64,000 nucleotides of DNA. It comes from Roseofilum halophilum BLCC-M91 (GTDB lineage: Bacteria; Cyanobacteriota; Cyanobacteriia; Cyanobacteriales; Desertifilaceae). Of the stretch, positions 4,072-55,845 are shown piece after piece (the first letter of the stretch is position 1; each line of letters opens with the position of its first letter). The notes under the pieces are model-generated. The model saw nothing but the letters and a program-made list of their open reading frames with translations. It was not told where the DNA came from and did no database searches. The stretch covers positions 1-64,000 of the forward strand of contig NZ_JAQPOK010000136.1 of the NCBI RefSeq assembly GCF_030068445.1. Reading direction: 5' to 3'. The position numbers and the translations under genes were made by a program.

Positions 4072-4137
4072 GGTAATGGGTAATCGGTAATGGGGTAATG
4101 GGTAATGGGGTAATGGGGTAATGGGGTAATGGGGTAT
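4072..4137. repeat. STRR array of GGTAATGG-type heptamers and octamers
   Basis: About eight imperfect copies of GGTAATGG with 7- or 8-bp period, immediately after ftsX. The same family occurs at 1-40, 55805-55845, 56690-56712 (inverted), 57794-57808 and 62044-62075. Confidence 0.85.
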
Positions 4138-4160: not shown

Positions 4161-4658
4161 CTCCCGTTTGATATGACTGGAGTGGGAGCGTCTCGCTCCC
4201 TAGCTCCTTAATTAGGTGATTTCTCCCGTTTGATATGACTGGAGTGGGAGCGTCTCGCTCCCTAGCTCCTTAATTAGGTGATTTCTCCCGTTTGATTATG
4301 ACTGGAGTGGGAGCGTCTCGCTCCCTAGCTCCTTAATTAGGTGATTTCTCCCGTTTGATTATGACTGGAGTGGGAGCGTCTCGCTCCCTAGGGCCTTAAT
4401 TAGGGGGTTTCTCCCGTTTGATATGACTGGAGTGGGAGCGTCTCGCTCCCTAGCTCCTTAATTAGGGGGTTTCTCCCGTTTGATATGACTGGAGTGGGAG
4501 CGTCTCGCTCCCTAGCTCCTTAATTAGGGTGTTTCTCCCGTTTGATATGACTGGAGTGGGAGCGTCTCGCTCCCTAGCTCCTTAATTAGGGGATTTCTCC
4601 CGTTTGATATGACTGGAGTGGGAGCGTCTCGCTCCCTAGCTCCTTAATTAGGTGATTT
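4161..4658. repeat. Eight-copy tandem repeat, 62-63 bp period, hairpin in each unit
   Basis: Units begin CTCCCGTTTGAT at 4161, 4223, 4285, 4348, 4411, 4473, 4535 and 4597. Each carries a perfect hairpin, GGGAGCG-TCT-CGCTCCC, then CTTAATTAGG. Copies are nearly identical. They differ by TGATATG versus TGATTATG (which explains the 63-bp units) and by a few bases after TTAGG. There are no spacers, so this is not a CRISPR array. It separates ftsX and ndhH and contains no credible gene. Confidence 0.95.
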
Positions 4659-4735
4659 CCGCTTCGCGGACATGAATCCACTTCACGGACATGAATCCGC
4701 TTCGCGGACAGGTTCATGTCGGACGCAGTCCGAAA
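4659..4735. repeat. Mosaic of CGCTTCGCGGACATGAAT repeats
   Basis: Three imperfect copies of CGCTTCGCGGACATGAAT in a row, followed by an inverted, altered form (TTCATGTCGGACGCAGTCCG). The family also appears at the ftsX stop codon and in 263-350 and 497-585. The block abuts the 3' end of ndhH. Confidence 0.65.
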
Positions 4736-10087: not shown

Positions 10088-10855
10088 CTAATTAGCCTGT
10101 ACCCAATCTATACAACCCATTCCTAGTCGAGTTTTCATCCCTGTGCCTGAAAATTGAGCATACTCTAGCAATAAGTGTGCCACATTTGCCAAGAGCGGAT
10201 CGGTTCGTGCTAATACTTGTAATGTTACCTTACCTACAAATCCATTCACATAACCTTGGTTTAATGGATAGCGTTGGCTATGAATTTTGTGACGCTTGAG
10301 AGCGATCGCGCTATCAAAATAACCCACCAACTCCTGACCCCCCAGATACACAGGTGCAAACTCATTCCACCGCTCTAGCCAACTGCGAAACATGAGGGTA
10401 GGAACAGGAAGGGGTAATTGAATTCCCTGTTGCGAGAATGCTGTTGGCGTGAGAAACTCTAGCTGAAATTCGCGGACGGGTTCGGGTTCAGCCGCTACCC
10501 GTGCATGATACAGCGCTTCATAGCTAGAGATCCGATTATTGCGATCGATCGCATTAAAAGTTGTCCCCAAAAATTCGAGAGAAGGGGAGAGATCAAGGGA
10601 GGCGATCGCTTTAGATCTATTCTCTTCTAATCCCGTTAAATAAAGTTGATAAAATTCTCCCGGCTGAAACGTAATAAAATTCTGCGATGTTGTGCATTTT
10701 CCTAACAATCCCGTGCAAGTTGTTGTCGGTATTTTTTCTTGACCCATTTCTAGATTTATCCGTTTGTGCAAGATTTTGACTAATTCCAGTCCGTAGTTCC
10801 GAGGTAAAGTCATCGGTCGATCAACGGTTAATGTCCAATTGGAGCGAATCAGCAT
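10088..10855 (-). CDS. cas6: CRISPR pre-crRNA endoribonuclease Cas6
   Basis: 255 residues. Cas6 cuts CRISPR precursor RNA within the repeat to yield crRNAs with a repeat-derived 5' tag. The C-terminal glycine-rich loop AQFSGTGMKTRLGMG is the family signature, preceded by the GKVTLQVL strand of the second ferredoxin-like fold. A His-containing N-terminal fold with several basic residues is present, but I cannot assign the catalytic His with certainty. It is the last gene of the operon, 2 bp after csm5. It is the only crRNA-maturation gene seen, although no array lies in this window. Confidence 0.92.
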   Translation of the reverse strand: MLIRSNWTLTVDRPMTLPRNYGLELVKILHKRINLEMGQEKIPTTTCTGLLGKCTTSQNFITFQPGEFYQLYLTGLEENRSKAIASLDLSPSLEFLGTTFNAIDRNNRISSYEALYHARVAAEPEPVREFQLEFLTPTAFSQQGIQLPLPVPTLMFRSWLERWNEFAPVYLGGQELVGYFDSAIALKRHKIHSQRYPLNQGYVNGFVGKVTLQVLARTDPLLANVAHLLLEYAQFSGTGMKTRLGMGCIDWVQAN

Positions 10856-10857
10856 AA

Positions 10858-12135
10858 TTAAAGCACCTTAAATTTGACCCATCCAGGTACATATTTAATC
10901 TCTCCCTTAGCATCGATCACAGTCCGCCGAGATTTTGGCGCTTCAAAACCTGGCGCTTTGTTTCCACAAACATCTCTAATCTCAGCTCTTAAATCATCAT
11001 CAAGAAGAGTATTAACCGTTGTTCCAGCCATTCCACTCGCCCAGCCCACCCGTAAAGTGTATGGACATTCTTCAGGTTTGTAAAAATCTTTAATTTCACT
11101 AAAATCTAAATCTCTACCATCAGCATTATTGTTTTTAATTTCAACCCAATAGTCATGCTCAAAATCCCACTGTTCTTGAGCAAAATTTTCACATATTTCG
11201 ATCAAGTCTTCTACGGATCTAAATGGAATCTGCATATTTTGCTTATGAGAAAACCGTGACAACAATTCGCGATCGAGCATAATTGAAAATTGGGTACGGA
11301 GATTATGCACTAGCTCGGTGTATATCGGAGATCGATATTTAGCTTTATAATCTGGAAAATGACTGGATACCATGACTTCGGCAACAACCCGTCTATTTAG
11401 GATAATTTTTTTTCCTCGTTTCTCAACTTTTCTTTCTAACAAAGGTTGCGAATCAGAGACATGAACCGCTCGCATAAAGTCCGTATTGGGCCCAGTGCTA
11501 TTGTTATTCCAACTGTCCTTCAATGAGAAATTACAAAAGAGCTGATTCATGAAAGCTTCATCATCATAGAATTTAGCTTTCCGCTTTAATTCACCGGTAG
11601 TGAATGATTGACGCAGCTTTTTCTCGATCTCACTCACCCGAACCTCACTGGGGACATGGTAGCGATCGGGGTCTCGGAGCAGATGATAGGCGATCGCCGT
11701 TCTAATTGCTCCCTTAATCGATGAACCAGGAATATACAACTCCCCAAAACCATTCCGAATCATAGGACGTAAACTTGTAATTTTTTTACCTGTCCATTTG
11801 CGACTCTGTAGTTTTTTAGGAAAAATCAATTCTCCATCATCCGTTTTTAAGGTTTTCCAGTCCTCTCCAAATGCATTCCTGAGCAAAGAAATAATTTCTT
11901 GATGGTGTTCAATCCGATAAATATAATCATTCAGAAAACTCCCCCCTTTAGCCTTGAATGCTCTTGCTAAAGCCTCTTGATTGGGCTGATAAATAGACTC
12001 TCCTGTATCAACATACTCAAAAGGGTTTAATTGCGAAACCGCAGAACCAATATGCAACATCCGGCTCGTCAGTTGAATGTTCTTGGTTTCATAGACATCT
12101 GGCTTACTGATGGAATTTTCTACAGAAACTGTCAT
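10858..12135 (-). CDS. csm5: Type III-A effector subunit Csm5
   Basis: 425 residues from ATG 12135. Csm5 caps the crRNA 3' end of the Csm complex. Family features are the N-terminal RAMP strand with LHIGSAV, YIPGSSIKGAIRTA around 150-165 (the glycine-rich turn shared with Csm3), and the C-terminal LRVGWASGMAGTTVN loop. The frame is open to 12198, but the extra 21 residues lie over csm4 and would add a spurious hydrophobic segment. ATG 12135 has a GGGGGA ribosome site and follows the csm4 stop by 1 bp. Confidence 0.93.
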   Translation of the reverse strand: MTVSVENSISKPDVYETKNIQLTSRMLHIGSAVSQLNPFEYVDTGESIYQPNQEALARAFKAKGGSFLNDYIYRIEHHQEIISLLRNAFGEDWKTLKTDDGELIFPKKLQSRKWTGKKITSLRPMIRNGFGELYIPGSSIKGAIRTAIAYHLLRDPDRYHVPSEVRVSEIEKKLRQSFTTGELKRKAKFYDDEAFMNQLFCNFSLKDSWNNNSTGPNTDFMRAVHVSDSQPLLERKVEKRGKKIILNRRVVAEVMVSSHFPDYKAKYRSPIYTELVHNLRTQFSIMLDRELLSRFSHKQNMQIPFRSVEDLIEICENFAQEQWDFEHDYWVEIKNNNADGRDLDFSEIKDFYKPEECPYTLRVGWASGMAGTTVNTLLDDDLRAEIRDVCGNKAPGFEAPKSRRTVIDAKGEIKYVPGWVKFKVL

Positions 12136-12136
12136 A

Positions 12137-13234
12137 TTATTTCCCCCGTCTAATCGGTAAACTAAGAGCAAGGCCACTGCGATAAACAGAATGACCACCC
12201 CGGAACCGATCCGGTGTTACATCTGCTAAAGCACCTTGGGGCTGAAAAGAAAATACTGAACCTTCCTCAAACATTCGTATTTTCTGACGGCGTTTTTGGA
12301 TACCAGAGGGAGAAGAAGAAACCCAACCCCCACGCTCAATCACGTTATAGCTAACTGATTCTTCAGCCTCAACAATTTTTTGAATTTCTGTCGATGTTTG
12401 AGGATGATTCCAAAACAGACTGATCAAGCTATGAGAGAGGGTTTTACCTGAAAAATTAATCACCCTTTGCCAACATTCCGGTAAATCTAACCACTCATAA
12501 GTAAATCGTCCAGCACCACTCGATCGCTCTCCACCGAGTCCCTCTTCTCCCAGTAAATTTAATACAGTCTTCAGTCGATATTCTAGTTCAACATTAGTTT
12601 GAGGAAACTGGAGTAAAAAATACAGTCCAGACTGATACTGAGCATTATTTTCAAAATGAACAACACCCGTCTGATAAAAATTCGTGGCGCTGCTCATCCG
12701 ATCAATGGCTACTTTTGGCAATTTCTGGGTTTGATGAGTTTTTCCATAACTAAAAACACAACTTTTTTCTAGTCTTCCTTTAGATTTGACTGTTTTCTGA
12801 GCAGTATTTTCCAACTCCTCTGCATCTTTTTGAGGATCAAATCCTTGACCCTGATACCATCGTTGCCAAAGGGTCAAGGGTAAGTAATTGAGCTTTTTGT
12901 AAGCTTTAGTGAATTTCAAATCATCGTCAGGATATCCTTGGGGAAAGACCATCGGTTTTGGCAAGTAGTAGGTATGGTTGTTCGGATTTGACTCTGTTGT
13001 TGATCGGCGATAGATAAAAGTTGAACTATGACGAAAAGGAGGGATAGGTTTTTGAAAGTCCTGTAGTAATGACTCAATTTCTTCTGGATATAGCCGAGCA
13101 TAAATGCTGATCATGGCACTAAAAAGAGTATCCGATCGCACTCTTTCACTGGTTTCCTCTAAACCAATACCAATTTCACCAAAATGGGCTGCACTATCAT
13201 TAAAATTAAGTTTGATCAAGCGCCATTCAACCAT
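12137..13234 (-). CDS. csm4: Type III-A effector subunit Csm4
   Basis: 365 residues from ATG 13234, giving the typical start MVEWRLIKLNFNDSAAHFG. Csm4 binds the 5' tag of the crRNA and joins Cas10 to the Csm3 backbone. Also visible are SDTLFSAMISIYARLY, the KLNYLPLTLW block, the GGERSSGAGRF glycine-rich segment and the C-terminal PIRRGK. It overlaps the csm3 end by 8 bp, so translation is probably coupled. The longer form from 13273 would add 13 residues inside csm3. Confidence 0.93.
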   Translation of the reverse strand: MVEWRLIKLNFNDSAAHFGEIGIGLEETSERVRSDTLFSAMISIYARLYPEEIESLLQDFQKPIPPFRHSSTFIYRRSTTESNPNNHTYYLPKPMVFPQGYPDDDLKFTKAYKKLNYLPLTLWQRWYQGQGFDPQKDAEELENTAQKTVKSKGRLEKSCVFSYGKTHQTQKLPKVAIDRMSSATNFYQTGVVHFENNAQYQSGLYFLLQFPQTNVELEYRLKTVLNLLGEEGLGGERSSGAGRFTYEWLDLPECWQRVINFSGKTLSHSLISLFWNHPQTSTEIQKIVEAEESVSYNVIERGGWVSSSPSGIQKRRQKIRMFEEGSVFSFQPQGALADVTPDRFRGGHSVYRSGLALSLPIRRGK

Positions 13235-14198
13235 TGTTTTTATTTCCTGGCAATAAAGTCTGAACTTCTCCAATTTTTTGGAGAAAATCTGCTGTATTTT
13301 CTGCTGATTGATCTAGATCTGACAACGATACTTTTGTACCACTAGCCAAACTGCGATACTGCTCAACATCACGATAGTAAAATTGAAATTTTTTGAAACT
13401 AACTTTGCCATATCCTCGTGAACTATGCCCCCCAAGAGCATCATCTTCAAGAATAGCGAGGGCGATCGCCAGATTCTTTAAATCTTCTACAGCTTGTACT
13501 GCATCTTCAACGGTGTAGACCATTTCAAAGTGAAATTCCGATCCGGCTGGGACTCGCTCCACTTGACGGGGATTGGCCGCAGCAGTAATACGATCCAATC
13601 CATTTTCAAACTTCCACTCAGTCATATAAAGACCAGTATCAATTTTCTTAAGTTTGTCGGCTGAATTAGGACGAAGATGACTATCTCGAACAATCAGACG
13701 TGCTGGACAATTCCGCCCCTCTGTGCTGGTATATTCCTCGTCATTAATTATTTTTTTGCCCTTGTCTTTCATGTTTTGGGATTGAACTATAGATGTCTTA
13801 ATCAAAGTTTGATTTCCCCGACCAGACGGCCCACCAGTAGAACCAAAAATTCGGCTTACTGGACAAGTCCTCGCTCCTTGAAACCCAATTAATTGTCCAT
13901 CAATTTCTGAAAATCCATCTTCTAAATCATCACTCTCATAACGATAGGTTCCACTCCCTCCTGGCCGGTTAAGAGGTTTGTTTAGAAAACGCTCTAAAAT
14001 TGAGCGCAGTTTACCTTTAATGGAAGAACCAGGAAGATAAGGTTCTTGGGTAAGGGGGTCACGAATTACTGCTTTATCCAAACCACCAATCTCTAAAGTC
14101 TCACCCCCTCCACCAATATGAAGTCCTGTTTCAACAACTAATATACTAGTCAAACGAAATTTACCTAATAAAGGTTTTTGTGTGGTTGCTGCTGGCAT
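13227..14198 (-). CDS. csm3: Type III-A backbone RNase subunit Csm3
   Basis: 323 residues. Csm3 repeats form the crRNA-binding filament and cleave target RNA every six nucleotides. The N-terminal RAMP strand leads to GLHIGGGGETLEIGGLD. Asp41 of GGLD aligns with the catalytic Asp of characterised Csm3 proteins, so slicing should be intact. The glycine-rich turn PYLPGSSIKGKLRS and the C-terminal LGGHSSRGYGKV loop are present. At 323 residues it is longer than many Csm3 proteins, with an insertion of about 60 residues around 75-150 that includes basic and zinc-type residues. Confidence 0.95.
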   Translation of the reverse strand: MPAATTQKPLLGKFRLTSILVVETGLHIGGGGETLEIGGLDKAVIRDPLTQEPYLPGSSIKGKLRSILERFLNKPLNRPGGSGTYRYESDDLEDGFSEIDGQLIGFQGARTCPVSRIFGSTGGPSGRGNQTLIKTSIVQSQNMKDKGKKIINDEEYTSTEGRNCPARLIVRDSHLRPNSADKLKKIDTGLYMTEWKFENGLDRITAAANPRQVERVPAGSEFHFEMVYTVEDAVQAVEDLKNLAIALAILEDDALGGHSSRGYGKVSFKKFQFYYRDVEQYRSLASGTKVSLSDLDQSAENTADFLQKIGEVQTLLPGNKNNG

Positions 14199-14200
14199 AA

Positions 14201-14686
14201 TTATTTACCTCCTGCTGCTTTGTGATAAGCAATTATTGATTCAATTAACTGAACAAAGCGCTCAAAATCATCTGTATTGTTTACTTTGTCAATAGCGGCT
14301 GCCATGACCTTACTGAGGGGTTTAACTGCTGGTTGTCGGGCAGCAGCATAAGCCAGCTTCGGTTTGAGTAAAACAATCTCTGGCTCTATCTTGGCAAAAG
14401 AGATGCTTTCTTGAGTGCTATCTCCATGAAATTGCGTCAATTTAGATTTGATTTGATTGATGGCATCCAAAAATTTACGAATTTGATTAGTTTCCAGCCG
14501 ATTTTTTTTGAGTTCAGGGCCAAATTTTTCGGCATGATTCACTAAAACCCGAATAGGATAATCTTTCAATCCAGTCGATAATTTCTGAATTGTATCGATA
14601 ATCTCTTTAGTAATATCATGCTGCGGGCTATGTCCATGTTGATTTGGACGATCTCTTGAATTAAGAGGTTTTGGAGGTTGTGTCAT
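14201..14686 (-). CDS. csm2: Type III-A small subunit Csm2
   Basis: 161 residues from ATG 14686 (ATG 14689 is adjacent; an AAGGA lies directly upstream, favouring the second). Csm2 is the alpha-helical small subunit that lines the target strand in the Csm complex. After a disordered, Asn/His/Pro-rich N-terminus of about 25 residues comes the helical domain. It contains LVNHAEKFGPELKKNRLETN and the C-terminal LIESIIAYHKAAGG. It lies 2 bp before csm3. The frame extends to 14731 without a better start. Confidence 0.88.
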   Translation of the reverse strand: MTQPPKPLNSRDRPNQHGHSPQHDITKEIIDTIQKLSTGLKDYPIRVLVNHAEKFGPELKKNRLETNQIRKFLDAINQIKSKLTQFHGDSTQESISFAKIEPEIVLLKPKLAYAAARQPAVKPLSKVMAAAIDKVNNTDDFERFVQLIESIIAYHKAAGGK

Positions 14687-14749
14687 CATTCCTTGCCTTA
14701 AGTTAAGTGGGTTGACCGTTGTAACATACATTCAAAAGTGAGTACCCGG

Positions 14750-17035
14750 TTAGGATTCACGGTTTAATAGCTCTAGCCAAGTGGCGATCGCTCGAAAATA
14801 AGGCGAATTTCTTGGACTCATGAGCGACTGCCGAATGGGTTTAAATTCTGGATTCTCCTGAACCTGTTTGGGTAATCGAGATAATGCATAGGCAAGCTTA
14901 GGTAAATGGAGAAAATAGGAAATATCTCGTTTTTTCTCTTCTTCTGCTTCTTTAATCTTTTGTTCACGTAACTGAGCGACAATCAAAAGATTGCGAATAA
15001 AACTCTGTGAATATTCGATAGAAGGTTGATTCAGACGACGAACAAAAGGTAAGACACCTTGGAGGGGAACATTTTCTACCTTGTCTAGATAATCTCGATC
15101 TTCATGACTGAGCATAAGTTGTTCACTATTTCCTAACCAAGCATCCCATTTAAAGACTTGCCCAAATAGTCCTAAACTATCCCGTCCATTACTCTTTGCT
15201 TTTTGTTCTGCATCCCCAGAATCATCAGCCGATTGATAGAGAGGATATTTAATTGGGGCTAAACTTATTCCCGCCGATAATGTGATATCTGGATTATACC
15301 CAGTATAGCATCTAAATGCTTGATAAACATCAAAAGAAAATTCTACCACTTCATGCCATGCTCCTACCACAAACAAATCATCACCTCCAGCATAGATAAA
15401 TAATAAATGAGGCCGTTCACTATTATGCAAACATTGAATATTTTTAGGAAGGTTATCTGAACGACTCTTCGCCAAACCGTTCAGATAAGTTTTGAAAAAA
15501 TAGCTCATCTGTCTTGAAAGTCCGGCGACTCGTGGCAGTGAGTAATTATTGGTTTGTTCTAAACCTTTAGCAAAGATTTGACCTAAATTATCTACATCCA
15601 TGCGTAAATAACCGACTCTGGAAATACAGCCAGCTTTCTGGGAAATTTCTGCAAACTCACCAGCCCTCATATATCCCTCTTCACCTTGCTGAAAATAATT
15701 ACCCAATAGCCAAGGTAAAGTCTTTCCTTCAAACCGAGAAAATGAATAATCATTGATAGACCAGTTGTTAATTAATAAAACCAGTTCGGGTTGATCAATG
15801 ATCGGCTTTCTACCCTCAAATAAATGATAATAAATATAATCCTCTGGTCGATCGCCAATCTGAAAATTTATTGTATGAAGAGGTTGCGAATCTTGCAGTT
15901 TAGGATGATGCGATCGCACCAATGAGTTAATCTTAAATAATACTCCCCCCAAATTAAACATTGCTCGACAAGTTGGACAAGCCAATGATGAATCAGCTTC
16001 ATTAGGGTTCAGTAACTTCAAGTCTTCAGTATCATCTCGATGGCATACTTTACAAGGAGTATAGCTTTCTTGGATTTCAAGAAGTTGATCGAGCTGGTGG
16101 TTAAACTTCCTCTGTTTTTGAGCATTGATTTTTTTGATCGCTTGATTCCAAGATTGCTTAAAATCAGAACCCGATACCCATTCACATTGAAGGTTTTCAT
16201 AATCTAAAGCTAGAAAAACCTTACCCTGAAATTCTTTCAATAACCAACGATTCAAGCGTTCTTGCAGGTTATTTATTTTCTCTTTATTCTCTTGAAATGG
16301 AGTGAGGATATACAAATTACCACCTCCCGCATAGATTACACTGGTTCTAGGTAAATCCAAAGTATCAAGAAGTTGTTGTACGATTTCTTCTGTAACCAAC
16401 TCTAGATAAAAACTGCGAGCGCGGAGTGACTTAAGTGCCCCATCAGTAGAAATTGTGTAAATAAAACTTTGAATTCCTGATAAATCCCCAGCCACTAAGC
16501 TAAAGTATTCTGCCGATGGATTTTGGGCTAAAGCTGCTGCAACTGCCCCTGTTATTCGAGCAATATCAACAAAGGCAACATTTTCCGAGTCATAGTTTAA
16601 ACAGAATCCATATTTTTCCAGAATTAAGGAGAGTAAAGAAAGGTTTTGCCAGTTTGAACTCTGAGTATCTTTAAGATGAGGATCGAGTTTTTCCCGAACT
16701 CTCTTTTTATAGGCTGTTGGATCAGGTGGATATCCATCTTGAAGTGGATAAGGAACCATGGGATCGCTGTCAGGTATTTCCTGCATTTGGCACCAATGTT
16801 TAACCCTATTTTGATTCCTGTCATGACGAAGCTTGACCTCATCAAAGAGTAATTGTAATGCTCCAATTTTAGAAGATTGAGCATCAAAACTTAAAAGCTT
16901 TTTGGCTCTTTCTGTACAATCTGAATCTGAAATATATTCAGTAAAGTTTATGGGGCTTTCTGCCCATCTGAGCAGTGTAGCTACTGCCTCCTGTGCAATT
17001 CTTAGTGCGGCTTTTTCTGAGTTTGATGTTTGCAT
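14750..17035 (-). CDS. cas10: Type III-A Cas10/Csm1, cyclase intact, HD signature absent
   Basis: 761 residues. Cas10 is the large subunit that makes cyclic oligoadenylates when target RNA is bound. Palm 1 has the degenerate IYAGGGNLYILTP near 235. A zinc finger uses Cys328, Cys331, Cys353 and Cys356. Palm 2 carries LRMDVDNLGQIF near 478 and the cyclase motif IYAGGDDLF with GGDD at 550-553. The N-terminal about 170 residues occupy the place of the HD nuclease, but no LHDxGK-type signature is present. The chance His71-Asp72 is not in that context. ssDNA cleavage is therefore not expected. The gap to csm2 is about 60 bp, the largest within the operon. Confidence 0.95.
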   Translation of the reverse strand: MQTSNSEKAALRIAQEAVATLLRWAESPINFTEYISDSDCTERAKKLLSFDAQSSKIGALQLLFDEVKLRHDRNQNRVKHWCQMQEIPDSDPMVPYPLQDGYPPDPTAYKKRVREKLDPHLKDTQSSNWQNLSLLSLILEKYGFCLNYDSENVAFVDIARITGAVAAALAQNPSAEYFSLVAGDLSGIQSFIYTISTDGALKSLRARSFYLELVTEEIVQQLLDTLDLPRTSVIYAGGGNLYILTPFQENKEKINNLQERLNRWLLKEFQGKVFLALDYENLQCEWVSGSDFKQSWNQAIKKINAQKQRKFNHQLDQLLEIQESYTPCKVCHRDDTEDLKLLNPNEADSSLACPTCRAMFNLGGVLFKINSLVRSHHPKLQDSQPLHTINFQIGDRPEDYIYYHLFEGRKPIIDQPELVLLINNWSINDYSFSRFEGKTLPWLLGNYFQQGEEGYMRAGEFAEISQKAGCISRVGYLRMDVDNLGQIFAKGLEQTNNYSLPRVAGLSRQMSYFFKTYLNGLAKSRSDNLPKNIQCLHNSERPHLLFIYAGGDDLFVVGAWHEVVEFSFDVYQAFRCYTGYNPDITLSAGISLAPIKYPLYQSADDSGDAEQKAKSNGRDSLGLFGQVFKWDAWLGNSEQLMLSHEDRDYLDKVENVPLQGVLPFVRRLNQPSIEYSQSFIRNLLIVAQLREQKIKEAEEEKKRDISYFLHLPKLAYALSRLPKQVQENPEFKPIRQSLMSPRNSPYFRAIATWLELLNRES

Positions 17036-17063: not shown

Positions 17064-18311
17064 TTATAATTTTTCTGTCTTGAAAATTTGCTTTGTTTCC
17101 TTTAGATAACTATCTAAATCTTGAATTGCCTTTGAATAAGATGATCGCTTTTTATCAAATGAAGCGTGGGCGATAGCATTCCGAATTGGATTAATCTTAA
17201 CGTATATTTTCGATAAAGAGAAATCCCGATGAGTTTTGGTTAATATCTTTTTCATGTCTTCACGATCATCTTTGTTTTTAAAATCTTTACTGTTAATTTC
17301 GCAAACATAAGTAATGATTGCTTCAGCCAAAGTAATATAGGCCGTAGCATAGCGCTTGTTTTTACAGTACCAACTCGCTAATTTTAATTGAAAGTTACTC
17401 TCTGGATTCACCATTTTAGATTGAGGGGAAAGTTGTTCAATAAAATCTCCCAGGATATTCTTTAAATACTTGAATGGACTAGATTGATCGGATTGAATAC
17501 TTTTTTTGAGAGTAGTAGCTTGCTGTTGGATTGTTGGTACATAATTGATATTAATCGCATCAGATAGCTTACGAATACCTTCCGCCAACTGATCGTTTCC
17601 TTGCTGTTCCAGGAGTGTGGAAATCAGATATCCATTACCAAAGTTTTTCAAACTATAAGCCCCTTTAATCCACTGAGTTAAATCAAATAATGATTTGAGA
17701 TTGACTATAGGAGCATACTCGAATTCTCGACAAACATCTAGCATCCCATAATAAATACCTGCGATTTTAATATTACGATCTGCCTTCAAGTCGTTAACAA
17801 ATATCAAAACTAAAAATAGAAACAGAGATAGAGAACGAAATGAGTGAGTGATATCGATATAAATTTCATCTCCATCTTCAAGATAATCGACAATCTGGAT
17901 GATTTTATCTAAATTTTCTTGCAGCTCTGAGTCTTGAATTCCATATTTTATCAAAATGCATTTGGATTGTTCTCCTAAAACCGCCTCCAGTTTGCTCAAA
18001 TCAATAGAGTCAAGAGGACTCTGATAATTTAAGTTATCTATTGTATCACTCAATTTCACATAATAATCTTCATCTACTGTCAATCCCTTCTCTAGACAAA
18101 ATGATTCGTAAGCTTCTTCCCACATGGATTTGACTGTGCCCAAGAAAATCATTCCGTCTAGTTGTAAATGTTCATAGAGAACTGAAGCAATAAAGCTTCT
18201 TTCGTAGGACTGGCCATCAATTTTGTAAACTGCTGTTCGATACTGACGCTTAGATGTATTGTTAGGATTTAAAGATCCTGTTCCTAAAGAAGAAATGAGA
18301 ATTTTAGCCAT
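17064..18311 (-). CDS. csx2: CARF-HEPN RNase, Csx2 / TM1812 (DxTHG) family
   Basis: 415 residues. The N-terminus MAKILISSLGTG and the motif DITHSFRS (Asp153-Ser160) mark the CARF domain of the DxTHG family, which binds cyclic oligoadenylate. The C-terminal helical HEPN domain has RNAIAH (Arg377-His382), the R-X4-H active site for metal-independent RNA cleavage. By family knowledge this would be the collateral RNase triggered by Cas10. It sits directly upstream of cas10 (28-bp gap), as effectors often do. Ligand ring size (cA4 or cA6) cannot be told from sequence. Confidence 0.88.
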   Translation of the reverse strand: MAKILISSLGTGSLNPNNTSKRQYRTAVYKIDGQSYERSFIASVLYEHLQLDGMIFLGTVKSMWEEAYESFCLEKGLTVDEDYYVKLSDTIDNLNYQSPLDSIDLSKLEAVLGEQSKCILIKYGIQDSELQENLDKIIQIVDYLEDGDEIYIDITHSFRSLSLFLFLVLIFVNDLKADRNIKIAGIYYGMLDVCREFEYAPIVNLKSLFDLTQWIKGAYSLKNFGNGYLISTLLEQQGNDQLAEGIRKLSDAININYVPTIQQQATTLKKSIQSDQSSPFKYLKNILGDFIEQLSPQSKMVNPESNFQLKLASWYCKNKRYATAYITLAEAIITYVCEINSKDFKNKDDREDMKKILTKTHRDFSLSKIYVKINPIRNAIAHASFDKKRSSYSKAIQDLDSYLKETKQIFKTEKL

Positions 18312-18335: not shown

Positions 18336-19250
18336 TTACTTCACAATTCTAGAAATAGCCTGTAATAGAACATCTGGAACACTGGGCATAGTATCCCGAT
18401 GCCACTTTCCAGCGATGAGTTCTAGATAGGGTTGGGTATGCAATACTTCGACTTTCTCCTCTAAAACACTGTGAATGACGGCGACTGGGGTTAAACCGTG
18501 ACAGAGCTTGTGCCAAATGGGGATTTGATCCGGTTGACTGCTGATGATGATGTAGTGGGTACATTGCTCAATGATGGGTAGCTTTACTGGATCGGGTTTG
18601 CCTCCTACATCCACAAGGGCTAAATTAACTACGTTGCGAATATGGTGAGTATTCTTAGCTTGATCCTCAAAATACTGTATTAAAAGTTTTTCTGCATCAG
18701 GATGTTTACAAATTGGAACTTTATTTTTTTGCTTCAAACGCTGGGATAGCTCTCTGTCTGGGGTTTCGTAGGTGTGATTGCCTTCACCGTCCCAGTTGGC
18801 TCGATGTAAGTAACTGCTCACATAAGGTAAGGTTTGGGACAAGTGTACCCGAAGTGTATTAGATAGGACACTTTTGCCGCTATTGGGGGGGCCGACAATT
18901 AGGAGTGCGGGGGACAAATTGTTACTAAACTCAAGGGGAATGGTATCTCCTATGGTGATGTCAGAAGAGTGACTGATGACGACGATCGCCGCTTGTTCTT
19001 GAATGTTAAAAAAGGCTACCCAAGGAAAGGAGGAAAATTTTTCTCCTAAATAGGTATATAACCAGACAGGAGCGCGACCAAATAGAAGTAAGGGTTGATG
19101 GGGGTCTAAATCTGGAGGAAATTGGAGGTTGAGTAAGGCTTGAGTGGAGATGAGTTCTGAGGGTTTGAGCAGGTTGATGGCTAAGGTTTGAATTAAGCTA
19201 TTAACGGGTGCTTTTGCCTTGAGAAAAATGCGCTGTAATTCGACTTCCAT
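18336..19250 (-). CDS. Csx3-like domain fused to P-loop ATPase
   Basis: 304 residues. Residues about 1-108 align with Csx3: LLLFGRAPVWLYTYLG matches the Csx3 core and VVISHSS matches its last strand. In Archaeoglobus Csx3 the metal and ring-cleavage residues are His60 and Asp69. Here those columns are Ser73 and Asn82, so this copy should not cleave cyclic oligoadenylate by the known mechanism. Residues about 112-304 are a P-loop NTPase with Walker A GPPNSGKS (120-127) and a Walker-B-like LALVDVGG (210-217). Csx3 fusions to ATPase domains have been noted in type III loci, but their role is unknown to me. It lies 19 bp after csx3 and 24 bp before csx2. A sensor or sequestering role is inference. 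Confidence 0.85.
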   Translation of the reverse strand: MEVELQRIFLKAKAPVNSLIQTLAINLLKPSELISTQALLNLQFPPDLDPHQPLLLFGRAPVWLYTYLGEKFSSFPWVAFFNIQEQAAIVVISHSSDITIGDTIPLEFSNNLSPALLIVGPPNSGKSVLSNTLRVHLSQTLPYVSSYLHRANWDGEGNHTYETPDRELSQRLKQKNKVPICKHPDAEKLLIQYFEDQAKNTHHIRNVVNLALVDVGGKPDPVKLPIIEQCTHYIIISSQPDQIPIWHKLCHGLTPVAVIHSVLEEKVEVLHTQPYLELIAGKWHRDTMPSVPDVLLQAISRIVK

Positions 19251-19269
19251 GATGATAAAATAAGGCTGA

Positions 19270-19599
19270 TTAGGAGAAGGTGGGTAAGTCTAAAGGTAAT
19301 ACTTGACTGACGTTAATGGTTGGGGAATGGGTGGCGACGACAACACCGCCTAAACGGGTGTCGTAGCAAGCAACCCAGGCTGCCGGATGGCATTCATGAA
19401 CGAGATAGCCATAGAGCCAAATGGGAGCTTTGCCTTCAAGAATTACGCCTTGGGAATAGTCGAGTTTTGGCAGTTTTAACCCCTTGAGATCTTGGGGGAC
19501 AATGACACCGTTTTCGGAGAGAATTTCGATGTGAAGATGTTGATAGTTAAGTCCCGATCGCGTTTGATGGGGAATGACGGTTAGTTCTACTGAACTCAT
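19270..19599 (-). CDS. csx3: Csx3 ring nuclease (Crn3 family)
   Basis: 109 residues, normal for stand-alone Csx3. It degrades cyclic tetra-adenylate and so ends type III signalling. GKAPIWLYGYLVHECH leads to His71, and VACYDTRLGGVVVATH contains Asp80. These match the two metal-binding catalytic residues of characterised Csx3 (His60 and Asp69 in Archaeoglobus), so this copy looks active. It is the first gene of the nine-gene operon, 77 bp from the divergent WYL regulator. The next gene carries a second, degenerate Csx3 domain. Confidence 0.9.
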   Translation of the reverse strand: MSSVELTVIPHQTRSGLNYQHLHIEILSENGVIVPQDLKGLKLPKLDYSQGVILEGKAPIWLYGYLVHECHPAAWVACYDTRLGGVVVATHSPTINVSQVLPLDLPTFS

Positions 19600-21038: not shown

Positions 21039-22772
21039 TCAGGTAGAGTGTGGGTACTTCACCATCGATTCCTCAATTACAAACTCCAACATTTGCCCTT
21101 GGGAACTGCCAAACTTAATTTTTTCCCCTGATTTTAAGGGAATTTCTTGCTGGTGAATTTTTTGCCAATTGCCCGATCGCAGCACCAAAGTTCCAAAGCG
21201 GGAAAAATCCCGTAACCAATAAGTCGGTTTTCCCTCCAACGGTTCTCGGCGAATAATTTCCGCGTGCCGTTGAGACACCCATCGTTCGCTAATGACAATA
21301 TCATTTTCTTCACGCCGTCCCACGCGCATCAGTCCCCCATGAATTTGCCAAACCTGTGTCGTTTCTTCTACCGAACGCAAGGAGGCAATGGTGCGGGTTT
21401 GTTGATGCAAATTGACGGCTGTATCTGGGAGTTCCGTAATTCCTTCCGGGGCAGGGACTAATAACTGGCCATTAAAATTGGGATGCATATATAACACCGG
21501 CAATGTCCAAGCCGGTTGATTATATTTATAGAGCGTAATTAACCGTTGGCGAGCGATCGCCGTTGCTTCATCGATAGGTAAACGCTTGGCCAACGCTTCA
21601 GCAAAGGCTTCAATAAAACTCAACGCTTCCCGATCGGCGATCGCCTCTCGCATCCCCAAAACCGCCGGAATTCCGTGATGGAGTAGCACTTCCGCAAAAC
21701 TACTACGAGGCAAGGAACGATAGGATTGGGCATCCGTAGGGCGATCGGCCTGGGTATCCCCCTTCGCACTCCAACAGGTATTCAACACCGCTAAAGTCAC
21801 CTGTCCGCGCACCAAAACATTAGCAAATTCCGTACCACTGAGCGTCGTTTCTGGCTGTAAATACAACCGTCCTCCATCCGGAGACGGCACACCGTGACCC
21901 CCATAAAACACAATATTATAAGTCTTCATCTCCAACGCCGCCATTAACTCAGCAGCAGTCGGTTGAATCAACCGATCCACATGGCAAGGAACCGATGCAG
22001 CCATTAAACTGGGCAGAGTTTGATCCGGATGGCTACAATTGACCAAAATTTTAGCTAACGTCTCCGCTTCCGCCTCCAATTGCAGATCGCCAGCCGTACC
22101 ATCCAACCCTTGAGAACCCATAGCCCCCGCCTCCACCGTTGCCCCAAAAACCAATAAAATATTCAGTTCCTGATCCGTCCGTTGGGGGGGAAGGGGATCA
22201 ACATCACTAGTCGTCCGGCTAAACAACAGAGTCGGAGAGACCGAAATCGCCTGTTTTCCTGCTTGAGATTGCATAATTTCCCAAGGTAAAGGAATTAAAT
22301 CCGGGTCTCGGATATCCAAACGAACTCGTAAAGGTTGATTTTTTCCGAGGGCAATACCTTGACTGTGGGATAAACAACTTTGAATCGGGCCATCAAACAC
22401 CCATTGCCACAAACCCATCCCCAATTGCTGCATCAAGCGACTACTATAAGACCCTTTTTCCTCTGGAGAAAAGGGCAACGTCTCCATTTCCGGTAGCTTA
22501 GACTCCACAGCAGGAATAGACAGAGAATAGGGAGGTTGGGAGGGAATTTGAAATAAATCTTGCCATCCTTCCCAAGTAAGGCTCAGAGTGTAGGGCCAAA
22601 CTCGGTCATGATGAACATATCCGCCCGGATAGGAAGCCCGAATCACCCAAATAGCAAAATGAGCGGAGTGGTTTCCATCAGGAGTATGATACTGACCACT
22701 GACCTCTGGAGGTGGACAACCGACCAAGCGGGCAATGGCAATACTGAGACAAGGACAGTCAATTGAAGACAT
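21039..22772 (-). CDS. CHAT-domain protease fused to FHA domain
   Basis: 577 residues. Residues about 1-190 are an uncharacterised N-terminal region. A caspase-like CHAT domain follows (about 200-440), with the predicted catalytic pair His293 in FYGGHGVP and Cys333 in VLNTCWSAKGD. The C-terminal FHA domain (about 483-565) has LMRVGRREENDIVIS and SQRHAEI, which bind phosphothreonine. The PP2C gene upstream (82-bp gap, same strand) could remove the phosphate the FHA reads, so the pair looks like one phospho-signalling unit. It is next to the type III CRISPR locus but separated from it by the WYL gene. No TPR region or gRAMP is present, so it is not the type III-E TPR-CHAT. Confidence 0.88.
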   Translation of the reverse strand: MSSIDCPCLSIAIARLVGCPPPEVSGQYHTPDGNHSAHFAIWVIRASYPGGYVHHDRVWPYTLSLTWEGWQDLFQIPSQPPYSLSIPAVESKLPEMETLPFSPEEKGSYSSRLMQQLGMGLWQWVFDGPIQSCLSHSQGIALGKNQPLRVRLDIRDPDLIPLPWEIMQSQAGKQAISVSPTLLFSRTTSDVDPLPPQRTDQELNILLVFGATVEAGAMGSQGLDGTAGDLQLEAEAETLAKILVNCSHPDQTLPSLMAASVPCHVDRLIQPTAAELMAALEMKTYNIVFYGGHGVPSPDGGRLYLQPETTLSGTEFANVLVRGQVTLAVLNTCWSAKGDTQADRPTDAQSYRSLPRSSFAEVLLHHGIPAVLGMREAIADREALSFIEAFAEALAKRLPIDEATAIARQRLITLYKYNQPAWTLPVLYMHPNFNGQLLVPAPEGITELPDTAVNLHQQTRTIASLRSVEETTQVWQIHGGLMRVGRREENDIVISERWVSQRHAEIIRREPLEGKPTYWLRDFSRFGTLVLRSGNWQKIHQQEIPLKSGEKIKFGSSQGQMLEFVIEESMVKYPHST

Positions 22773-22854
22773 TTAAAAGCCTTGATATCACTGGTTGAGT
22801 GTATCCCATTTCTTCTAGTTTATCGGATTGCTGGGACAGATGGGGGGATTCCCA

Positions 22855-24816
22855 TTACCCATTAGTATTCATGGGACTGGGGGAAGGGAGGACAGGTGGT
22901 GCTGGAGAGGTTTGGGGAGGTGGAGATTCTATCCAGAAGTCCCTAAAGACATATAACATCCCTCCCCCTAAAACCAATAAGACGGTAATTCCCATTAATA
23001 ACCCTGGAATCGAAACTCTTCTGGTGGCTGTTGTTGCGGTTGCAGTTGAGCTAGGTTGAACTTCAGGAGCGCCAACGGTTACCAGTTGGGTCTTCATGGA
23101 TGCCTTAACTGACGGTTTATGGGGCCGATCGCCCTGAGTCACCGGATCGAACAATTGGGTTAAGGGTTCAAGGGTGACTTCCTGGGGCTGTACTTGATAA
23201 TGGATCAGGCCAATGGTCACGTTATCATGACCATTTAGAGTATTCGCTAATTCTACTAACTTAGAAGTCGCACTGGCCACATCCAACTGGCCCGCTAAAA
23301 TCGGTAACAGTTGGCTTTCCCAATGGTGTTCTACGCGATCGCCATCACTGAGACCATCAGAGCAAAGCAACACAATCCCATCTTCATCTAAAATCAATCG
23401 TCCTACAGTAGGATGTAATAAGTCAGACTCACTCATTCCCAAAGCCTGTACCAACGCTCCCGCCGCCCGATGTTGTAGCGCTTCACGATATAAGCGATAC
23501 CCCAAGCGCACTTCGCGAGAGGCTAAATCATCATCTAAGGTCACCTGATGGCATCCCTGTTGGGTGACCCAATAGATCCGGGAATCCCCCACATGGGCAA
23601 TATAAAGTTCATGGGCCCGATCCACAGGAGGGGGAACGACAGCCATCACCAGGGTCGTTCCCATCCGTTGCCGCTCGTGACGATGTTCTTGGTCATTGCG
23701 ATCGCTAATCACTGTATTAGCATCACGGATGAGCCGATCGAGCAAACTGGTGATCTCGTAGACCTGCTCCGAGGGACTGGGGTCAGGGGAAATCTTATCC
23801 CAGGTGAAAGAATCTAAAATAGTTTCGATCGCCTGTTGAGAAGCCACTTCTCCCCCATCATGACCACCAATTCCATCACAGACGATCGCCGCAAGCGGCT
23901 CAGATGGGTCAGTGGAGGAAACCGTTTTTCCTGGAGGGGGTTGCAGGGGATAACAAGCATCTTCATTATGGGAGCGACTGGGGCCCTTATCCGTAGCCGT
24001 GCAGAGAGTAAAGTGGGTCGTTTGGGACTCGCTACAATAGCGTAGGGCCCGATCGAGTTCAGCGATCGCCCGATCCATGGCTAAAATATGACCATCCATT
24101 AATCCTTGAGCTAAATGTTGTAAAAACCGACTGATGAGAGGGTTAGCACTTTTAGCCAAGGGTAACCACATTTTGCCTAACTGAGATAACTCCAGACCCG
24201 ATTCGGGATCGTTTCGCAATTCCAGAACCCGCAGCACCGGCCCTTCAACCCGCAAAAATTGATGATCCAGCAAGGAATTAGCCACCCCTAAAACCCTGAA
24301 CGGTTGCCACAGATGGGCAATTTGCCACAACCAATGCAGTTGGCGCATGGCAGGGGCTACTTGCCATTCTTCTTTGAACCGAGGCATCAGGGGAGGTTTT
24401 TGGGGAGCTGTGGGCACAAGGGAGGAATTAATGGGCGCTCCCTCTAGCAGCAACACAGGCGGTAGAGTTGGCTGAAGGGTTAAGAGTTCGTAGGGTTGAG
24501 GCAGATGGAGTCGATAGGGAAATAATTTCAGATAGGTTTGCATCGACGCTGAAATTTCGGAGGGGATATGGGGGGGAACCCCTGGTTTCAGATCGAGAAA
24601 AATATGATTACCTTTATAGAGATAGCGATCGCCGATCCGCTCTCCCGGTTGCAGAAAGTCTAAGGCCTGGCCCAGGGGACGCAGGTCTGGGGAAGTCGCC
24701 CACAGATACCGTTTAATTAACCGAGTGCCGCAACGTTGGCAACATTGAATCTCTTCTGAGTTGACTGTCTGGCAAGTGGGATGGGGACAGTTAAGGAATG
24801 CGGTTTCGGTTGGCAT
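22855..24816 (-). CDS. Membrane-anchored PP2C-type Ser/Thr phosphatase
   Basis: 653 residues. The N-terminal zinc ribbon (CPHPTC near 10-15, CQRCG near 26-30) is followed by a linker domain of about 240 residues. The PP2C catalytic domain runs about 285-530, with metal-binding motifs SRSHNEDA, VCDGIGGHDGGE and HVGDSRIYW, and SDGLSDG. A single C-terminal membrane segment (about 607-627) leaves a short proline-rich tail. It would dephosphorylate Ser/Thr on cytoplasmic or membrane proteins. It is co-directional with, and 82 bp upstream of, the CHAT-FHA gene, a likely partner. Confidence 0.92.
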   Translation of the reverse strand: MPTETAFLNCPHPTCQTVNSEEIQCCQRCGTRLIKRYLWATSPDLRPLGQALDFLQPGERIGDRYLYKGNHIFLDLKPGVPPHIPSEISASMQTYLKLFPYRLHLPQPYELLTLQPTLPPVLLLEGAPINSSLVPTAPQKPPLMPRFKEEWQVAPAMRQLHWLWQIAHLWQPFRVLGVANSLLDHQFLRVEGPVLRVLELRNDPESGLELSQLGKMWLPLAKSANPLISRFLQHLAQGLMDGHILAMDRAIAELDRALRYCSESQTTHFTLCTATDKGPSRSHNEDACYPLQPPPGKTVSSTDPSEPLAAIVCDGIGGHDGGEVASQQAIETILDSFTWDKISPDPSPSEQVYEITSLLDRLIRDANTVISDRNDQEHRHERQRMGTTLVMAVVPPPVDRAHELYIAHVGDSRIYWVTQQGCHQVTLDDDLASREVRLGYRLYREALQHRAAGALVQALGMSESDLLHPTVGRLILDEDGIVLLCSDGLSDGDRVEHHWESQLLPILAGQLDVASATSKLVELANTLNGHDNVTIGLIHYQVQPQEVTLEPLTQLFDPVTQGDRPHKPSVKASMKTQLVTVGAPEVQPSSTATATTATRRVSIPGLLMGITVLLVLGGGMLYVFRDFWIESPPPQTSPAPPVLPSPSPMNTNG

Positions 24817-55804: not shown

Positions 55805-55845
55805 GGTAATGGGTAATGGGTAATGGGTAATGGGTAATGGGTAAT
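55805..55845. repeat. STRR: six GGTAATG heptamers
   Basis: Six direct copies of GGTAATG, exact 7-bp period, ending TAATATCG. The array starts 12 bp after the CRP-family stop. Confidence 0.9.

Follow-up and report, generated by a model that had tools for sequence, protein, structure and literature searches.

An intact Csx3 paired with a degenerate Csx3-NTPase fusion in a type III-A CRISPR operon of Roseofilum and in other cyanobacteria

The stretch of Roseofilum halophilum BLCC-M91 DNA analysed here ('the window'; 64,000 nucleotides) contains a type III-A CRISPR operon in which two adjacent minus-strand genes, csx3 (crn3; positions 19270–19599) and a gene encoding a Csx3 domain fused to a P-loop NTPase domain (18336–19250), are separated by 19 nt and lie upstream of a CARF-HEPN gene, cas10/csm1, csm2 to csm5, and cas6. 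The stand-alone Csx3 comprises 109 aa; the fusion comprises 304 aa, with a Csx3 domain at residues 1–109 (18924–19250) followed by the P-loop domain at residues 110–304 (18336–18923). The genes that follow are likewise on the minus strand. The CARF-HEPN protein (17064–18311; TIGR02221, PADLOC CARF2--CARF_HEPN), with an RNAIAH motif at aa 377, is a probable cOA-activated RNase. Cas10/Csm1 (14750–17035) has the cyclase motif GGDD at aa 550; its match to the Csm1 profile begins only at model position 48, and its N-terminal HD domain therefore appears incomplete. Profile matches identify csm2 (14201–14731), csm3 (13227–14198), csm4 (12137–13273), and csm5 (10858–12198), and cas6 (10088–10855) scores above the cut-off for PF10040 and slightly below that for TIGR01877. 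A gene for a WYL-type CRISPR-associated regulator (TIGR03985; 19677–20984, plus strand) is divergent from csx3. Scans for promoters and terminators found no sites. A second genome, that of R. acuticapitatum BLCC-M154, contains an intact csx3 and a fusion 92–93% identical to the one described here; a genome search found no match to the fusion in four other Roseofilum genomes, indicating that the fusion is an accessory module.

Other features of the window are recorded here for completeness. Beyond the WYL gene lie genes for a CHAT-FHA protein and a PP2C-type phosphatase (21039–24816, both on the minus strand). A 62-nt tandem repeat that includes a short palindrome (GGGAGCGTCTCGCTCCC) is present in eight copies at positions 4161–4659, between an FtsX-like gene and a gene of the NADH dehydrogenase 49-kDa type; this array was considered as a CRISPR array and rejected, variable spacers being absent. 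Tandem repeats of the GGTAATG type are present at three sites (1–30, 4072–4136, and 55805–55845).

The stand-alone protein has the properties expected of the Crn3/Csx3 family (AfCsx3; PDB 3WZG, 6VJG, 6YUD). It matches PF09620 (E = 1.8e-31) and AfCsx3 (E = 2.8e-15), scores above the curated cut-off of TIGR02579 (96.3 bits; cut-off 55.4), and retains all five catalytic columns: that is, H68, H71, D80, R82, and H91 occupy the positions of AfCsx3 H57, H60, D69, R71, and H80, in a numbering anchored on the H60A chain of 6yud, in which alanine replaces the first H of the HH pair. A preliminary description of this DNA had named two of these residues, His71 and Asp80, and was right in doing so; the H57, R71, and H80 columns are intact as well. 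In AfCsx3, neighbouring dimers share the active site for cleavage of cA4, one contributing its H60 face and the other its D69 face, and the D69 face supplies most contacts to cA4; the H60A and D69A mutants are each inactive, mixing the two restores activity, and R71A and H80A are weak (PMC7371418). On the strength of the conserved residues, we predict that the stand-alone Csx3 is a ring nuclease that destroys the CRISPR alarm molecule.

The Csx3 domain of the fusion (hereafter Csx3*) resembles Crn3/Csx3 in its predicted fold but differs from it in lacking H57, H60, D69, and R71. Csx3* scores 60.4 bits against PF09620, above the cut-off, and 46.1 bits against TIGR02579, below the cut-off of 55.4. 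E70 and S73 stand in the columns of H57 and H60, N82 and Q84 stand in those of D69 and R71, H80 is the sole AfCsx3 catalytic column that is kept (as H94), and F57 occupies the column of S44. The preliminary description had reported two adjacent genes with a Csx3 core, and its coordinates, strand, and residues are correct, PF09620 being found in both; it had correctly placed Ser73 and Asn82 in the fusion, and had made no mention of the losses at H57 and R71 or of the retained H80. Its picture of an intact copy beside a catalytically degenerate one is borne out: one copy is intact and the other is dead on the H face, and the type III locus that holds them also encodes a CARF-HEPN effector and a Cas10 with the cyclase motif. 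The two Csx3 domains are 34% identical over 107 aa (E = 1e-14), too close a match for the columns to have been paired by chance; misalignment of the columns was rejected on this identity together with the agreement of two independent alignments and the fold. An AlphaFold2 model of the whole fusion chain is confident (pLDDT 91.8, pTM 0.88), and in the model Csx3* retains the Csx3 fold (against 6yud, VIA-align gives Z 14.3 with an rmsd of 1.9 across 96 aa). A comparison of the two Roseofilum genomes that carry the module gives dN/dS values of 0.085 for csx3, 0.185 for Csx3*, and 0.205 for the NTPase domain, and in other close pairs Csx3* gives 0.10–0.34. A pseudogene or sequencing artefact was rejected on the basis of dN/dS values of 0.19–0.23 and the near-identical copy in the second genome. 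We conclude that the dead Csx3 domain is under purifying selection and is a maintained component.

The C-terminal domain of the fusion contains a complete set of P-loop NTPase motifs: the P-loop GPPNSGKS (Walker A, G120 to K126 and S127), D154 of WDGEGN, and the Walker B sequence LALVDVGG (D214-V-G-G). The preliminary description had noted both GPPNSGKS and LALVDVGG and had called the domain an ATPase, a term that is probably right in the sense that the motifs are those of a P-loop NTPase; in its predicted fold the domain looks like a SIMIBI NTPase. The motifs are nearly all invariant in 65 relatives, with D214, G216, and G217 invariant, and Walker A, D154, and the DVGG of Walker B are conserved across paired, unpaired, and divergent members (see below). 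The fold of the model matches MinD (Z 14.1 over 176 aa) and ParF, Soj, ApbC, and HypB (Z 12–14), and its Foldseek matches include FtsY/SRP54. The likeness to SIMIBI NTPases (MinD, Soj/ParA, ParF, ApbC, HypB, FtsY/SRP54) thus comprises a predicted fold with Z 12–14 over 150–180 aa, an hhhDxGG Walker B, and a conserved Asp after strand 2, D154, whose position suggests the role of the catalytic Asp of the SIMIBI type; the fusion differs in lacking the deviant Walker A of the MinD/ParA type and in having only ~7–14% sequence identity to these proteins. Two hallmarks of AAA+ proteins are missing: Walker B ends in LVDVGG instead of DE, and the model has no C-terminal helical lid, the elements after Walker B (H221–227, E232–237, H240–249, E254–262, E266–271, E276–281, and H293–303) including no helical bundle. 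SIMIBI proteins filled the fold lists and no AAA+ protein was among the entries, an absence that by itself excludes nothing, and some family members give weak Pfam hits to AAA_16 or AAA_18. According to the model, the domain probably belongs to the SIMIBI switch NTPases and not, as databases label it, to AAA+; 'AAA' in the PADLOC name Csx3-AAA (PDLC01045), a profile that the fusion matches at full length (219.8 bits, residues 4–302 on positions 7–283 of 286, Csx3 then P-loop), is probably a misnomer. Judged from its motifs, the domain would hydrolyse NTP.

Fusions of this architecture are not new: a Csx3-P-loop fusion ("Csx3'") was described in 2020, and no function was assigned to it there (PMC7371418, Figure 1). 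The Roseofilum fusion shares with Csx3' and Csx3-AAA (PMC7371418; PADLOC PDLC01045; Slr7080) the order Csx3 then P-loop, a cyanobacterial host, and a type III CRISPR context; the published descriptions that we found differ in that they do not divide intact unpaired fusions from dead paired ones. We assembled loci from genome searches and a contig search in sampled cyanobacteria, scored the domains with custom-built profiles, and defined as 'paired' a fusion with a solo csx3 directly upstream (n = 23; gaps −22 to 225 bp; order always the same). The results indicate that loss of the catalytic His residues goes with pairing. Paired fusions retain H57 in 0/23 cases, H60 in 1/23, and H80 in 2/23, and their solo partners are fully intact in 22/23; unpaired fusions retain H57 in 37/39, H60 in 38/39, D or E at position 69 in 39/39, and R71 in 38/39. 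The preliminary description had raised the question whether the His/Asp loss is general and always accompanied by an intact Csx3. The His loss is indeed near-uniform for fusions behind a solo Csx3 (H57 lost in 23/23, H60 in 22/23), but not for fusions at large, and loss on the Asp side is less clean, with D69 kept in 14/23 paired fusions, R71 in 11/23, and both in 9/23. That all Csx3-NTPase fusions are dead was accordingly rejected as a general rule, the 39 unpaired ones being nearly all intact. The S44 column is aromatic (F, Y, or W) in 22/23 paired and 0/39 unpaired fusions: that is, the aromatic residue is a conserved specialisation and not random decay. Relatives of the fusion differ freely from one another in the residues of the dead columns. 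The cyanobacterial rule of a dead fusion with a live solo Csx3 is new here; the literature that we searched, with incomplete coverage and with absence being no proof, yielded no account of an intact copy accompanied by a dead fused one.

Two loci are exceptions to the rule: L155, whose fusion is degenerate although no solo Csx3 lies beside it, and L114, a paired fusion that is intact. L073 and L145 were considered as pairs and rejected; in these, the solo gene lies downstream and the fusion nests among intact, unpaired ones. Three further loci deserve description in their own right. At L038 (5938–6297 and 6376–7293), home of the single main-family paired fusion with H60, the solo protein has Y at H60, and the fused copy keeps H60 and lacks H57, D69, and R71, possibly a swap of roles between the solo and fused copies. 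At L157 (5224–7929), a paired locus with an intact csx3, the fusion gene lies in two reading frames ~0.8 kb apart within the NTPase domain, possibly owing to a recent insertion. At L161 (3164–4126), Csx3 occurs in a setting other than the usual fusion: an EAD8 (effector-associated domain 8) protein has a C-terminal Csx3 domain with H57 kept, H60 replaced by A, and R71 replaced by N; Csx3 domains in EAD-type systems have been mentioned (PMC7159879). A search for viral relatives found none.

A divergent, Slr7080-like family gives weak matches to the query NTPase (roughly 26–36% identity) and repeats the pattern. Both H57 and H60 survive in 1/9 paired versus 7/8 unpaired fusions, a count that hinges on how MAFFT aligned these short and diverged domains; homology of these domains to Csx3 is supported by profile-profile comparison (hhalign probability 93). 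D69 and K71 are kept in 9/9 paired fusions, and the solo Csx3 proteins read H, H, D, K, H in 16/16. The one unpaired exception is Slr7080 itself (L139:7728–8660; Synechocystis PCC 6803 plasmid pSYSA), which has Q, P, D, K, and R at H57, H60, D69, R71, and H80. The literature cites Slr7080 as a putative Crn3 ring nuclease; its residues make that listing doubtful and suggest that it is probably not one. No other Csx3 was found on pSYSA.

The pairing statistics are weaker than the counts, for the tree of NTPase domains contains only ~3–4 independent transitions. With both families pooled, fusions are intact in 45/49 unpaired versus 1/32 paired cases (Fisher's p = 7e-17 with descent ignored). On the NTPase tree, three well-supported independent pairs give a mean of 2.5 in the expected direction and 0.0 in the other (sign test, p = 0.25), and within the main family one change explains both the paired and the single states. 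We conclude that the association of pairing with loss is consistent yet statistically modest, and that shared descent explains much of the counts.

Single-chain Csx3-Csx3-NTPase proteins provide a second view of the arrangement. Two such proteins, L039 and L153, belong to the main family, and 17, essentially one clade, belong to the divergent family. In the divergent single chains, domain 1 keeps H57 and H60 in 16/17 each and H80 in 0/17, and domain 2 keeps H60 in 16/17, D69 in 17/17, K or R at position 71 in 17/17, H80 in 16/17, and H57 in only 1/17; these losses are complementary, as would be expected of two halves of one dimer. In L039 (model pTM 0.86) and L153, H57 and H60 are gone from both Csx3 domains and, by the AfCsx3 mutants, neither protein should be a ring nuclease. 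The second domain of L039 keeps D69 and R71, and no other Csx3 was found in its genome; with H57 and H60 gone from both domains, the L039 module cannot be a ring nuclease. In L153, both domains are degraded on both faces. In seven further loci, an NTPase with no Csx3 domain lies directly behind a solo Csx3, indicating that Csx3 plus this NTPase is the common unit.

The effectors that neighbour the pair differ while the pair stays, which argues that the pair is not tied to one effector. CARF-HEPN and CARF-PD-DExK proteins are found beside the pair, and a CARF-RelE protein is found beside single-chain L153; the 86 flanking proteins scanned around the pairs and the single chains include 18 WYL proteins of the TIGR03985 family as well as Cas10 proteins of several subtypes.

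We regard the dead copy as probably a functional partner in regulation and not as junk. As the best explanation, which we hold tentatively and at a little short of an even chance, we propose that it acts as a pseudo-subunit, associating with intact Csx3 and linking cA4 turnover to an NTPase switch. According to this proposal, csx3 and the fusion would encode the co-expressed halves of one cA4 signalling regulator. The stand-alone Csx3 would be the ring nuclease. Csx3* would assemble with it, the likeliest form being an asymmetric Csx3:Csx3* dimer and the alternative a stack with cA4 between the two, and would supply no metal-binding H60 half-site, bringing instead a SIMIBI-type NTPase into the complex; binding or hydrolysis of NTP would then set the lifetime of the ring-nuclease assembly. 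We infer the physical Csx3:Csx3* assembly, the hydrolysis of NTP, and the coupling to cA4 cleavage; that the fused copy may bind cA4 or the active Csx3 and couple this to ATP hydrolysis had been suggested in the preliminary description, whose reading we find supported in part. The sequence comparisons that speak for the proposal are the pairing rule, its repetition in the divergent family, the single chains with complementary losses, the recurrence of Csx3 with NTPase as a unit, the low dN/dS of Csx3*, and the conserved aromatic residue at the S44 column; the variety of effectors is in keeping with a regulator of the signal in general. The regular company of a live copy and the existence of one-chain proteins point to a joint complex, and the presence of the NTPase points to a switch or timer. 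Against the proposal stand the small number of transitions on the tree, the losses in L039 and L153, and the exceptions L155 and L114; NTP hydrolysis is a prediction from the motifs.

The main rival, which we consider rather unlikely, is that Csx3* is a dedicated, non-cleaving cA4 receptor like Cat1, in which case cA4 would glue stacked dimers together and switch on the NTPase as an effector or output of the signal, and the intact Csx3 would be the off-switch. There is a published precedent: Cat1 sandwiches cA4 between dimers with no detectable ring nuclease activity, and the cA4-glued Cat1 filaments switch on a TIR domain without cleaving cA4 (PMC12162218). The cA4 sensor of Cat1 (PDB 9mud), named CARF in its paper, resembles the Csx3 domains of the fusions weakly in sequence and fold: a profile of paired Csx3* domains matches it (E = 1.6e-4 over 55 positions), a profile of intact solo Csx3 does not find it at E ≤ 10, and Cat1 appears at Foldseek rank 49 for the fusion model. 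Cat1 thus lends support, by analogy, to the possibility that a Csx3-like domain may serve as a pure receptor. Consistent with reception, the cA4-facing D69 and R71 are retained together in the nine paired fusions noted above, as are D69 and K71 in all nine divergent ones, and the second domain of L039 keeps the same face in a protein that is dead on its H faces and whose genome showed no other Csx3; some members of Csx15, another ring-nuclease family, bind cA4 without acting as enzymes (PMC13148439). Dead copies have no special claim to the resemblance, though, since a profile built from intact and dead fusions together matches Cat1 just as well (E = 1.7e-4). D69 and R71 are N82 and Q84 in the Roseofilum locus, CARF effectors are already present in the loci, and the same NTPase is also found on intact unpaired fusions. 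The Cat1 effector is a TIR NADase whereas the fusion has a P-loop NTPase and no TIR domain, and an intact Csx3 partner is not part of Cat1.

It is improbable, in our estimate, that Csx3* does no more than help the NTPase to fold or dimerise, as the remnant of an ancestral fusion that was once intact, and makes no contact with Csx3 or cA4, catalysis having been taken over by a second copy. Degradation of both faces in the Roseofilum locus and in both domains of L153, and free variation at the dead columns while the fold is kept, are what a scaffold would exhibit; strict gene order and adjacency, the conserved aromatic residue, and the complementary losses in single chains are not, and the NTPase needs no Csx3 domain in order to exist, as the seven loci without one attest. 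We give very little weight to Csx3* as a sponge, which would sequester cA4 and so reduce its free level, the NTPase releasing it again: non-enzymatic Csx15 members do sequester cA4, but the large messenger output of type III systems limits sponging (PMC13148439), and the D69 face, the source of most AfCsx3 cA4 contacts (PMC7371418), is altered in the Roseofilum fusion.

The proposal that Csx3* is a pseudo-subunit of a complex with intact Csx3 may be taken one step further, to a two-protein, NTP-gated cA4 switch in which Csx3* would sense cA4 or cA4-loaded Csx3 and the SIMIBI NTPase would create a timed on/off state, a version that we regard as possible though doubtful. If true, this would be, to our knowledge, the first case of a SIMIBI NTPase driving a type III CRISPR signalling module, and would constitute an obligate asymmetric assembly of a pseudo-ring-nuclease with its live twin. 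The dead fusion branch with its intact Csx3, the repeat of the pattern in a divergent branch, and the probable SIMIBI assignment make the function of the fused P-loop domain a matter that well-defined biochemistry on two proteins can address. If the proposal is right, control of the type III CRISPR alarm would gain pseudo-enzyme partners and NTP-dependent timing.
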